NCBI GenBank assembly: GCA_963969365.1
Contig: OZ017751.1
Coordinates: 2,666,001 to 2,730,000, forward strand
Source: Asterochloris sp. CNOR1
Taxonomy: Eukaryota > Chlorophyta > Trebouxiophyceae > Trebouxiales > Trebouxiaceae
DNA length: 64,000 nt
Reading direction: 5' to 3'
Shown here: positions 3,201 to 62,232 of the stretch, piece after piece
How positions within the stretch are numbered: the first letter of the stretch is position 1
How the letters are laid out: each line of letters begins with the position of its first letter
Notes under the pieces: generated by a model
Database searches by the model: none
The model's input: only the letters and a program-made list of their open reading frames with translations
What the model was told of the DNA's origin: nothing
Program-made: the position numbers and the translations under genes

Positions 3201-6200
3201 AATGTCCTCGTCTGTGACGGTGCCGCCTCCGCCGCTGAACACCAGCTCTGCCCCATAGCGCACCATCTGCAGCAGGTCGTCCTTGCCCACAGTCTTGTTG
3301 CTGTCCTGCATGCGCCCCTGCTGGATGACCATGGCATCCAGCTTCAGCTTCTTCAGCGCCTTCTCAATTACCTGCAGCAAAGTATATGATTGTATCAGTA
3401 GCAAAGCAGGGCAGTGTATCAATGCTTGCTTGCAGTCCTCGCCCTCAATGAGGCACAGTGAGGAGCGCCGGGAGACGCAAGAGCCAGACGTGCTGTGCCG
3501 GCTGTCTGCACCCTTGGGACAGGCAAGGTATGGCTGTTGGGAGCCAGCACTGCTGAGCCCTTGAGCAGAGTCCAAGTCCACCCCAAGCTGTCACAGCTGA
3601 CTTGGCTTTCTGTCCTGCTTCACAGCGCAGGCCAGCATGCGCAGCAAAACACTGTAGCTGCCAGGATGGGCCAGACAAGCTGAGCTGCCAGGCGGACCTT
3701 CTCTTCGATAGAGTGCTCCGTGCAGAACCGGAACACCTGCACCTCCTTCTTCTGCCCAATGCGATGGGCACGGTCCATGGCCTGCAGCAGGGAAGCTGAG
3801 TGTGAGATGGTCAGGCTGGGCTGTGTGCGACCTCAGCAGCTGCAACAGAGAAATAGGCGCCCACAAGCTGCCAGGTGGGCACAGCTGCCAACATGCTCTG
3901 CGCTGCCCTATGACTCAGTCATAGGTCAAGTCAGCAAAACAGGTCAGGATGAAGTACAAAAGAGCAGTACATCATGCCCCATAACCACTACAACACGTGC
4001 CTGCAGATCCATCTGGGGGTTCCAGTCGCTGTCGTATAGTACAACAATGTCTGCTGTGTACAGGTTGATGCCCAGGCCGCCAGCACGCGTAGACAGGAGG
4101 AAGACAAACTTCTCGCTGCCCTCTGCATTGTAGGCATCGATCTGCGACTCCCGGTCCTCACCAGTGGTGTTACCTGCAGAGGGGCAATGGCACGAGCTTG
4201 CAGTGCCCGCCTCGACTGCTTCAGAAGCAGCCCTGCAGAGAGCAGCCATGGACATGCTGCACCGTGTGCTGCACATTTCAAGGTCTGACAGTACAGCACA
4301 TCTTAGCTGCCACTCATGCCAAGAGCAGCTGCGGAAATGCTGCTCTTCGTCATGCAAAGCACCCTGTCAGGCAGTCGAGCCCGCCTCCAAACTGTGGATA
4401 GAGGCAAGATGCTGCACAATACCATAAGTGAGCACCTTTCAATAAACGTGCTGCAGGTGCAGGTGCTGGCAGTGCTGTCCATGAATTGGCACACAGCGGA
4501 AGTTGTGCGCAACGCTAGGCGCGCCGCGCTTGCAGATGGCAGAGGAGGTACATCGCTCACCATCAATGCGGCAGTAGCTGTGGCCCCTAAACACGCAGTA
4601 GTCCTCCAGGATGTCCAGCAGGCGGGTCATCTGTGAGAAGATGAGCACCCGGGAGCCACGTTGGTGCAGCCGCGGCAGCAACTTGTCCAGCAGCACCATC
4701 TTGCCTGCAGGCAGCAAGCCAGGGGCTGAGCCCACCATGCAGTGCTCAGGCAGGAGGCTCCTAGGTCTGCTGCTGCAGTCCTGGTACAGAAGCTGGTCCA
4801 GCGTGTATGCAGCCCAGCATGTCAGCAGGGGGGAGCACTTCCCACATGCCTCACTGGACACCTGATGACCATTCACTCCTTTCATGCTGCTGCCTGGGAT
4901 GCAGGCAACTGGGCCAGATGCTGGCAGGCTCTCCATAGGCAGGGTGCAGTGCATCGTTGCACTGACCTGAGTTGGTAATGAGGTGGTCCCCCTGGGTGTA
5001 GGGGGGTCCTGGCTCTGCCCCTTGGAACAGGTAGGGATGGTTGCAGCACTTGCGCAGCTGCATGACAATGTTGAGCAGGCGGGTGCGCTCAGCCCCGCCA
5101 TGAAGGGCTTCAATGTCCTTGGACAGCAGGTTGCGATACCACTTCTTCTGCATCTCGGACATCCCGATCTTCAAGATGGTCTCCTTCTTGGGAGGCAGGG
5201 ACTTCTCCACATCTGACTTGATGCGACGCAGCAGGAAGGGGCGCAGCACCTGCAGGGGAAGCAAGGAATAAGTCTGAGAATCGGCTGACGACTTCACCTT
5301 GAAGAGCAGCAGAATTCTTAGTTGCCTCAAGCAGCCCACGAATAGAGCAGCAGGAAGGGCCACAGCACCTGCAGGAGCAAACAGGCAGCACGGAGCTGCA
5401 GCGTGGTAAGTTGGCCTCCCCGTCAAATAGCAGCAAGAGGCACAGCACCTGCAGGCATCATGCAGCTTGAATTCCGCTCAGCACCAGCACTGTGAAGAAA
5501 GCAGCAGCTCAAGCTGTGAAGGGCGGGAATGCCCAATTCCTGAGACGACTTGACACTGTGCAGCAGGAAGGGGTGCAGCACCTGCAGGGGCAGCAGATCA
5601 GCAGATGCACTGCACAGCATGAGGGGCTGCGGGCACCTGGTATTTGCATTGCGGCAGCTTTGGTGCACAGCACCTGCAGGCATTGACGCACAGTGCAGGG
5701 TTGATCAAGGTGCATTAGCAGACCACCAGCTGCTGACAGCTGAGACCAAGTGATTGCATAGACATGGCTATGCAGCAGAGTCAGATGCAGCGGCAGCCAG
5801 CACAGTCATGCAACTGAAGCGCTGTCTCCACAGGGCCTGGCTCAACACGCCCAGCTGTGCTGCATCCGGGCTGCCCTCTGCAGTGCTGTGCAGGTTCCTG
5901 CCATAAGGACACCTGCTACTGCAGGCAAGAATAACGGCCACACCTTGTGCAGCTGCTCCACCACTGACGCCTCGGCCTCCTTATCCCCTGTGCCGACCTT
6001 GAACCACTCGTCAAACTTCTCTGCTGAGCCAAACACCTCTGGCAGCAGGAAGTTGAGCAGCGCCCACAGCTCGTGCAGATTGTTCTGCAGAGAAAAGCTA
6101 GACAACATGAGCCATTCTGCTTTACATGGCTGATTGCTAGGTGTGCAGCCTGCCAGATCAAGCTTGCTGAACTCCAATGGGTCTTTGCAGCATGCAGTGT

Positions 6201-59683: not shown

Positions 59684-62232
59684 ATGCCAGCTGAGCCCAA
59701 GCCGTCAAGCAAGAGCACAGAGCTGCACTACCAGCAGAAGCATGTCCTGCGTGGCCACAGCAAGAGTGTGGTGTCTGTCAAGTTCTCTCCGAACGGGCTC
59801 TGGCTGGCAAGCGCGTCAGCAGACGCCACCCTCAAAATCTGGGATGTGCAGTCAGGGCAGCTGCTGAGGACGTGTGAGGGGCACATCAAGGTCCGTAGGC
59901 GTCCTTTGCTGTCTACACAGACTGCGACATGTTCTGACGAGTCCATAGGACCTTCCCTGCATGAGGTGCTGTATGCCACACTTGTGTAGCAATGACAAGC
60001 CTTGGGGTGCCTCAGCCTCGATGCTGAACACTAGGTGGCCCATTTGCAGCGCATTCAGCACCTCAAGCAATGCTGGAAGCGTTGCTTTGCTGAGCTTTGT
60101 ATGCACGAAGGGGCCACCAGCCTATACTGTACTTGCTATGGCATCAAGCAGCGCAAGCTTCCGTAGGGCGCTCTGCAAAGCAGGGGTGCTCAAACATCTG
60201 CAGCTGCACCAGAGCGGGGGCGCATGCATCTGCTGCTGCAACACAAAGTTGCTCAGGCACCTGCCGCTGCGCTGCAGGGGTGCTCAGACGTCTGCTGGAA
60301 TGCTGCTTCATCCTACCTTGCCTCAGCCTCCGATGACAATACCCTGCGCCTGTGGGATGCACAAACTGCAGAGAGCCTCAGGACGCTGGAGGGGCACACA
60401 CACTATGTGTTTTGCTGCACCTTCAATCCCCAGGGGAACTTGTTGGTGAGCCTGCCTGCTTGATGGTAGCCGCTGCAGGCAGCAGCAACGCCTGGTTTGC
60501 CTGCAACCCAAGTTCATTCCTGGGGTCAGCCCCATATGTGCTAAGGTGACAGCAATCCTTGACACTGTGCTGCAAACTCATCAATGGGGCACCGGCACTG
60601 CAAGCATACCTGGCAGACAGCACCGCAAGACACTGCTCTGCCGCATCTCCAAACTGCTGGTGAGCCTGCCCGTCAAGGTAGCAGCACTGGATGACAATGC
60701 CACTTGCAACAGCAAAAGTCTGCTGCACTCTCAACCTCGAGGTGGGTGTCAGCACATTCATGTTTTCTGCTCCCAGACTGCCTGCACAGGCCACCTAGGG
60801 TCGAGTGCTGATGGGCCTGTCTGCCATGGTGGCAACACTCAAGGCCTCTATTCATCTCAAAAGATCAGCATATGTAGCTTACATCTTGGTCTTGCTGGGC
60901 AGGCAACGCTGGGCATCACGTGGGGTGGCTGGCTGCAACTCAGCCCCAGTGTCAGCGGCAGGACGCCTGGCAGTATGGGTGTGGTGGCAATGCTTGCTCT
61001 AATGTGAGCCTGCATGCTGCGTGCAAAAATGCCCACGTGTGGTGCTGTGCTGCTGCAGGTAAGTGGCAGTTTTGATGAAACGGTGCGCATCTGGGATGTG
61101 AGGGATGGCGTCTGCCTGAAGGTGAGCTCCTGTAACAAAAAGAGACAGGCCATGTTGCCAAAATGCTCCACTCAATGCCTATAGTAGCAGGGCTGTTACA
61201 GACCATTTAGGACAGCAAGTGGTCCGTGAAACTCGGCGTTTGCCTTTGCCTGTGCATGCACAGACCTGCCTGCACCGCTTTTGTTCCACATGTTTCAGCA
61301 GCAGGTGTTCCACACCAAGGTGGATTCGCCGCTTTGCCAACTGCCAGCATACAGAAGCTCTCGCGTGCATCTGCAGACCCTCCCAGCCCACTCAGACCCT
61401 GTCACAGCAGTGGACTTCCACTGCGATGGCACTTTCCTGGTGTCCAGCAGCTTTGACGGGCTGTGCCGCATCTGGAGCGCCGAGAATGGGCACTGCATGA
61501 AGACACTGATTGATGAGACCAACCCCCCGGTCTCTTTTGTGAGATTTTCGCCCAATGGGACCTACATTTTGACGGGGACGCTGGATGACCAGCTCAAGCT
61601 ATGGGATTATGAGCACTGCAAGTGTGTTAAGATCTACAAAGGTGAGCCAGATTCCTGCTTGCAGCCAAAGGTGAAAACAGGGAGCTGTTGCTTGCCTGCT
61701 CTCTGCCTTGCCTCTGTGCAGCAGCATTGCAGCAGCCGGCACGGCGTCGACTGCTGGGCAGCCAAGGCTTGTCAGCATGAGTCAGCATGTTCCTGCTGAG
61801 GTGCTTCTGGGTGGAAGGCCCTCGCAGCCCACCGCAGTCAGGGAGCCCTTCTGTGCTGCAGGCCATTCGAACAAAAAGATGTGCTTGTTTGCTGATTTCC
61901 TGATCTCTGACCCCCGTGGGAAGTTTGTTGTTTGCGGCAGCGAGGACCACAGCATTTCGTTTTGGGATGTCAATAGCAAGAAGGTACGTGAATACTATTG
62001 GGGCCTGGCTTGCATTTTGTCTACCATTCAATCAGAATGCTGAGCCAGGCTGCCTCATGCCATGCAGCAAGTCCAGAAGCTCAAGGGGCGCCAATCTGCT
62101 GAGGAGGAGGGCGAGGGTCACTGCGCCCCTGTCATCTGCATCGCTGCCAGCACGCAGCACAGCCTGGTTGCTTCCTGTGCCCTGGAGCCAGACAGCACCA
62201 TCAGGCTTTGGCAGGACCCAGCAGCTGCGTGA
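59684..62232 (+). CDS. WDR5: WDR5 homologue (WD40 repeat, COMPASS/MLL core)
   Basis: Seven-bladed WD40 scaffold that holds H3K4 methyltransferase complexes together. Exons: 59684-59890, 60278-60445, 61059-61121, 61377-61641, 61862-61983, 62068-62232; phases close to 329 residues, the usual WDR5 length. Successive repeats are clear: [19 protein letters not shown]...LKIWD, CSDVCWN...TLRLWD, GHTHYVF...[25 protein letters not shown]...[16 protein letters not shown]...LKLWD, and a last blade with [11 protein letters not shown]. Blades are 40-44 residues and share the GH...WD framework. The seventh blade has a short acidic insert (AEEEGEGH). An upstream in-frame ATG at 59621 would add 21 residues, but 59684 fits the family start better. 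The long intron 60446-61058 contains copies of the exon 2 donor edge. Confidence 0.93.
60178..60210 (+). repeat. Decayed copy of WDR5 exon 2 start
   Basis: gcaggggtgctcaaacatctgc at ~60180 mirrors the real border tgcag|gggtgctcagacgtctgc at 60273-60295, about 95 bases downstream. Confidence 0.75.
60435..60840 (+). repeat. Serial copies of WDR5 exon 2 donor edge
   Basis: The border aacttgttg|gtgagcctgcctgcttgatggtagc at 60437-60470 is echoed at 60652-60685 (aaactgctggtgagcctgcccgtcaaggtagc) and more weakly at ~60809-60840 (gggcctgtctgccatggtggc). Spacing is about 215 and 155 bases. Confidence 0.7.

Follow-up and report, generated by a model that had tools for sequence, protein, structure and literature searches.

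Why should an intron carry worn copies of the edge of the exon that stands beside it? The question is raised by a stretch of 64,000 nucleotides from the chlorophyte Asterochloris sp. CNOR1 (contig OZ017751.1, our C6, positions 2666001-2730000; hereafter the window), for which an earlier note had described serial, decayed copies of exon borders and their splice sites within the adjacent introns of several unrelated genes, and had proposed a local duplication process that lengthens introns, seeds spare splice sites and is perhaps biased towards DNA containing such sites. These exon-edge echoes are real, and the echoed edges fall where they had been placed. The account that we favour, with a probability of roughly 0.78, is that the echoes are fossils of ordinary small head-to-tail tandem duplications that were blind to exon borders and were filtered afterwards by selection.

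The analysed DNA comprised the window and 200 kb of contig C1, picked blind, a total of 264 kb or about 0.5% of an intron-rich genome of 56.4 Mb (21 contigs, 58% G+C). Gene models were obtained with a two-strand, splice-aware hidden Markov model, self-trained from a seed of seven ISWI exons read by hand, on which a minimum exon length was imposed; without such a limit the model called spurious micro-exons, some of them within echoes. The converged model contains 592 introns with a median length of 227 bp, recovers the hand-read ISWI exons and yields open proteins for the genes named in the earlier note, with neighbouring genes often merged. ISWI itself was recognised by eye, and Pfam scans of three of the seven predicted window proteins gave cyclophilin with ChaC, ABC1 with WDR5 (among the best 25 of 37 families matched) and GST with FAD_binding_4. 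The most frequent hexamer of the window is CTGCAG, in agreement with the strong TGCAG acceptor consensus of the trained model.

Local repeats were collected as ungapped direct repeats (match +1, mismatch -1, simple repeats dropped) at spacings of 40-300 bases and with a score of at least 16, and these limits apply below unless others are given. A local duplication process, as had been claimed, does exist, since 138 pairs were found against about 5 expected from spacings of 8-41 kb; the rate per million cells is 0.80-4.30 at the short spacings and 0.06-0.07 at the long ones, and the excess fades past 300 bases. By class the 138 pairs divide into 52 intron-intron, 48 intron-junction, 15 intron-exon, 16 exon-exon and 7 others, and the window alone holds 19 intron-intron pairs and 20 exon-edge pairs. 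The comparison proposed with the original claim, of exon edges with their own introns and of exon interiors with the same, was run on the 264 kb and bears the observation out. The edge set consisted of 413 introns of 120-900 bp with both exons at least 45 bp long, and each edge (40 exon and 8 intron bases) was aligned with its own intron and with up to 40 length-matched introns from elsewhere. Donors and acceptors each gave 20 matches to the own intron among 413 edges, where 0.5 and 0.7, respectively, were expected; this is 29- to 40-fold above the length-matched introns. Taken together, 40 of 826 edges matched, against none of 220 exon-interior 48-mers (0.3 expected); for intron-interior 48-mers the count was 14 of 592 (1.0 expected).

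In the account that we favour, the duplicated unit would be as long as the spacing and could fall anywhere. Where a unit spanned a junction, the gene could be preserved if splicing used the outer copy, with which the remainder of the exon is contiguous, and the inner copy, with its piece of exon and its splice site, would turn into intron. The exon copy would then be conserved while the intron parts decayed on both sides, leaving as the obvious remnant an exon-edge echo of 30-60 bases. Copies of exon sequence in introns should span the junction, because a head-to-tail duplication leaves hardly another route by which exon sequence could enter an intron. Units internal to an intron would be neutral and appear as intron-intron repeats, units internal to an exon would survive mainly when in frame, and serial duplications would give serial echoes. 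We infer that fixation was neutral, that most events are old and that the mechanism at the DNA level was replication slippage or end-joining.

The structure of the copies is consistent with such units. The distance from the exon part to the border of the copy-bearing intron is at most 15 bases in 59 of the 63 exon-edge pairs and at most 25 in 61; measured to the facing exon edge, it is at most 15 bp in 62 of 64 cases, whereas of 222 pairs taken at a looser score from spacings of 8-12 kb, 50 come so close. Unit spacing is mostly 63-220 bp (10th to 90th percentile of the 40-300 scanned). When the flanks of the copies were compared in the ungapped register, the signal of unit homology was weak only, but when the intron bases 8-48 past the copied junction were aligned with gaps, 87% outscored the control (p = 7e-8) among the 52 of 60 collected cases that offered enough room. 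The intron-flank score was 0.095 per bp, against -0.024 for the control and 0.043-0.242 for simulated tandem units at t = 0.28-0.35. Residual homology, though weaker (p = 0.003), also continues past the exon end of the tract, and the tract ends are therefore underestimated. The highest-scoring cases are nearly whole units, with spacings of 79, 110 and 118 and tracts of 89, 95 and 106, respectively. Among exon-exon pairs the spacing is divisible by three in 15 of 16, against 16 of 52 intron-intron pairs. Codon periodicity accounts for part of this frame rule: same-strand exon pairs share phase in 50 of 82 cases when far apart and in 14 of 16 when near.

Likenesses of this kind could in principle be produced by chance, by the shared splice consensus (CTGCAG/G) or by CAG/CTG-rich composition, and be caught by an alert reader; CTGCAG does occur 240 times in the window against 143 expected. 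For the set as a whole this explanation is refuted and retains virtually no credence, although single weak pairs can still be chance: introns elsewhere give 0.5-0.7 matches where 20 are seen, far spacings give about 5 pairs where 138 are seen, and, because those other introns have equal splice features and match 29- to 40-fold less, the echoes do not stem from a shared consensus. Several points weigh against tandem duplication itself. The gene models are self-trained and were built without RNA or protein alignment, and two of the 63 exon parts lie 89 and 173 bases from the border of the intron that holds the copy. Ungapped tracts reach 0.8 of the spacing in only 12 of the 138 pairs, 11 of the 12 pairs with an identity of at least 0.9 have tracts of 33 bases or fewer, and a MAFFT alignment of the ISWI units revealed little homology outside the edge itself. 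Tracts that are short relative to the spacing (at least half of it in 38 of 138), the shortness of the high-identity pairs and the fact that long matches are fewer than simulated would all suit short templated insertions, in which 30-60 bases are copied some distance off and the spacing is unrelated sequence. Against such insertions stand the homology that gapped alignment detects through the intron part of the unit, the top-scoring cases that fill almost the whole of it, and the finding that 59 of 63 exon pieces sit at the border, which insertions that jump a distance would not need. As the explanation of the set they are therefore unlikely; for part of it short templated copies may account, because the tracts are short relative to the spacing and the ISWI alignment is poor outside the edge.

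The remaining adverse points concern placement, and with it the possibility that the duplication process is aimed at splice junctions, for example via the spliceosome, R-loops or transcription, and so copies exon edges preferentially. In simulations, whole units were scattered with uniform probability over the gene models, decayed, and then searched for by the procedure used on the real sequence; we compared the junction share, defined as exon-edge pairs over exon-edge plus intron-intron pairs. The observed share is 63/115 = 0.548 (95% interval 0.45-0.64), a count that leaves outside it 23 of the 138 pairs (16 exon-exon, 2 exon-junction, 4 junction-junction and 1 junction-intergenic). Simulations with ages from zero gave 0.46-0.55 (runs of 0.472, 0.551, 0.548, 0.533, 0.507 and 0.464-0.547), so that the observed share sits at the upper end of their range. 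It climbs with score, to 0.587 at 18 or more, 0.683 (41/60) at 20 or more and 0.806 (29/36) at 24 or more, whereas the age-zero simulations stay at 0.49-0.55 and 0.51-0.55 at the last two thresholds; the same simulations (ranges to 0.45 or more) put 55-67% of intron-intron pairs at a score of at least 30, where 1 of 52 is seen. When ages were fitted to the intron-intron pairs, one setting gave 9.8 pairs in the 24-30 bin against 20 seen. The climbing share speaks for targeting, as does the match rate of edges, about twice that of intron-interior 48-mers. Placing the detected segments at random, which gives 15.7% intron-junction pairs against 35% seen, points the same way, but this null was dropped, since what is duplicated extends beyond the segment that can be detected. 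Uniform placement of whole units, on the other hand, reproduces the overall share. The score distribution speaks independently for old ages, and these give, at 16 or more, shares of 0.835 and 0.913 (0.76-0.89 for ages of 0.3-0.6) and, at high scores, a share about equal to the observed one or higher: for ages of 0.3-0.6, 0.83-0.94 at 20 or more and 0.75-0.99 at 24 or more, the observed values being mostly lower. The whole-unit simulation thus removes the junction excess at a score of at least 16; above that it does so only if the ages are old. With fitted ages, uniform placement predicts in four settings 135-497 exon-edge pairs where 63 are seen. The 45 intron-junction pairs that cross a junction show no preference for either kind of site (23 donors, 22 acceptors), and intron-intron and in-frame exon-exon duplications are common. 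We conclude that junction targeting, which we consider improbable, is not needed, a conclusion that leans on the events being old. The suggested bias towards splice-site-containing DNA is accordingly not shown, the share at 16 or more fitting uniform placement and intron-intron duplications being common (52 against 63), and where the echoes had been described as more than scattered microduplication, placement without regard to borders suffices. A further explanation, that selection keeps the echoes as spare or alternative splice sites or as alternative exons, we regard as very improbable. The echo often retains its splice dinucleotide, in 32 of 47 junction-crossing pairs (AG in 16 of 22 acceptors, GT in 16 of 25 donors), and in the second of two GST genes the model uses the downstream copy of an edge whose upstream copy has an in-frame stop. 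However, a two-base retention of 68% against about 62% predicted from a per-site identity of 0.79 equals ordinary decay, the spacings of exon-edge pairs are without a multiple-of-three bias (15 of 63), and this GST gene looks truncated by eye. The seeding of spare splice sites thus stands as far as AG and GT are copied into introns, but nothing in the 47 copied sites suggests that they are being retained or removed.

The 77 of 592 introns with a detectable local duplication have a median length of 358 bp and the others one of 203 bp, as is expected if duplication lengthens introns, although longer introns also leave more room for duplication. The summed spacing amounts to 15.5 kb of 154 kb of intron, an approximate figure in that arrays were counted pairwise, and exon-edge echoes are found at 54 of the 1184 borders in the 264 kb. 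Near-identical tandem units of 40-300 bp are almost absent, with one pair at an identity of at least 0.9 over more than 50 bases; a score of 30 or more is reached by 9 of the 63 exon-edge pairs. Short-period repeats (12-36 bp) with 90-100% matches do occur in the window. The scarcity of young units may reflect a past pulse, tracts shorter than assumed, or the loss of near-identical units in assembly. It is possible, though doubtful, that tandem duplications of about 60-300 bp came in a past pulse and not at a constant trickle, adding some tenth of the present intron sequence and leaving decaying splice sites behind; the suggestion is made because young near-identical units are almost missing and because the junction share rises with score as old events predict.

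Within the window, pairs of an exon edge and its intron copy were listed at a score of at least 14. On the reverse strand, the ISWI exon with the sequence VLRPFLLRR (4967-5249) has an open frame, forms a continuous ISWI-like protein with the neighbouring exons, and is the source of an array through its 5' edge. Its acceptor (5249/5250) is echoed at 5347-5375 (spacing 119, 93% identical), at 5429-5455 (spacing 199, 89%) and at 5547-5595, or 5562-5588 in narrower bounds (spacing 332, 86% over 49 nucleotides); a short fourth echo at 5665-5683 matches 5440-5458 at a spacing of 225. Simple stepwise addition of single copies is an improbable origin for the array, because the echo at spacing 332 matches a longer stretch of the exon than the nearer ones do. 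A comparison of window positions 5200-5620 with the genome, very common words being skipped, returned for this one locus the match to itself and a single 48-base exon match in another SNF2 gene, on contig C2, which we take to be INO80-like. The coding sequence of that gene is continuous through the place in question, and dating by an ISWI paralog gave no age.

Also on the reverse strand, a donor-edge echo of exon 917-1144 (border 916/917) lies at 773-819 and an acceptor-edge echo of exon 2069-2171 (border 2171/2172) at 2218-2254. In CWC27, the exon edge 45106-45149 (border 45149) is echoed at 45339-45382 and the edge 45916-45986 (border 45911) at 45688-45758, while the exon starting at 47645 (border 47644) has three diverged donor-edge echoes (47364, 47453 and 47530) within 47364-47591.

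On the forward strand, two GST genes stand in tandem at 21699-24922 and are 82% identical across about 450 bp of exon and intron. In copy 1 the exon edge 22068-22110 is echoed at 22173-22202 (spacing 105), and in copy 2 an edge near 24141 is duplicated as the pair 24044/24147 (24044-24088, spacing 103), an echo common to copy 1. Since both copies carry it, the echo is older than the duplication of the gene. Copy 2 is truncated in appearance, its upstream edge copy contains an in-frame TAG (24057-24059), and the gene model splices to the downstream edge copy; possibly the echo is here replacing the original exon edge, or the gene is a pseudogene in decay. The acceptor of the lactone oxidase gene (27280) is echoed at 27109-27140, 91% identical to 27261-27292, and again at 27144-27207 (spacing 82, 64 nucleotides, 75%). 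ABC1K has an echo of 51613-51681 around its acceptor (51622) at 51503-51571 (spacing 110, 69 nucleotides) and one of 51759-51797 around its donor (51793) at 51915-51953 (spacing 156). The exon edge 58653-58691 (exon start 58641) is echoed at 58389-58427 (spacing 264, 87%), in a gene whose name TspO was not confirmed. An echo of 60267-60295, at the WDR5 acceptor (60278), lies at 60173-60201 (spacing 94); the WDR5 model may miss some propeller sequence, and inspection of the intron there showed no obvious exon. The last pair of the earlier note, 60655/60806, is in the gene model a weak intron-intron pair with no exon edge. Further echoed edges of the window lie at 18345 and at 24842/24843. A predicted gene at 36077-41815, by eye like a fused ergothioneine-synthesis enzyme, contains an exon repeat, 40568/40658, with a spacing of 90.

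Events of a related kind have been described. In the potato RdRp gene, according to passages of Ma, Lan and Niu (2016, PMC4974935), a new intron arose from a tandem duplication that ran from the 3' region of an intron into the beginning of the exon downstream and took along the 3' splice site together with a putative branch site, and the gene also has an 83 bp tandem duplication within an intron; internal gene duplications are described there as commonly observed. The echoes resemble that case in the tandem duplication across an intron-exon boundary and differ from it in that the inner copy here appears to have been absorbed into a longer existing intron. Rogers (1989), as told in PMC4974935, likewise had introns gained by tandem genomic duplication, in a model in which a stretch containing potential splice sites is copied locally, head to tail, and splicing then restores the message, and tandem duplication of proto-splice sites is described for Drosophila by Lehmann et al. 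(2010, PMC2891723). In the Rogers model an exon piece containing AGGT is duplicated and an intron is gained, whereas here an existing junction is duplicated. The echoed border reads AG/GT in 20 of 47 cases (6 of 22 acceptors, 14 of 25 donors), and each is already an intron border in the models. Introners, as outlined in PMC9860276, also add intron sequence, but their copies are spread through many genes, unlike the ISWI echo region, for which the genome search, with very common words skipped, turned up no second full copy in 56 Mb. Among the titles and abstract openings returned by our search, to which this statement is confined, no description of exon-edge echoes as such was found. Because tandem duplications that span borders or contain proto-splice sites are already on record in these sources (PMC4974935, PMC2891723), we place the echoes with a known kind of event, of which they are additional examples and which here seems mainly to lengthen existing introns.

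The tempting inference that splice sites are targeted is corrected, as head-to-tail duplication together with selection would by itself make exon-derived copies in introns span a junction. What emerges is a simple, testable account of intron lengthening, in which selection freezes the exon copy while the intron copy decays, so that a readable signature would be left at the border. Exon edges could then be used as a yardstick for old intron duplications that are missed when introns are compared with introns. If the past pulse is true, the decaying splice sites that it left would be open to later use by intron sliding or exon change.

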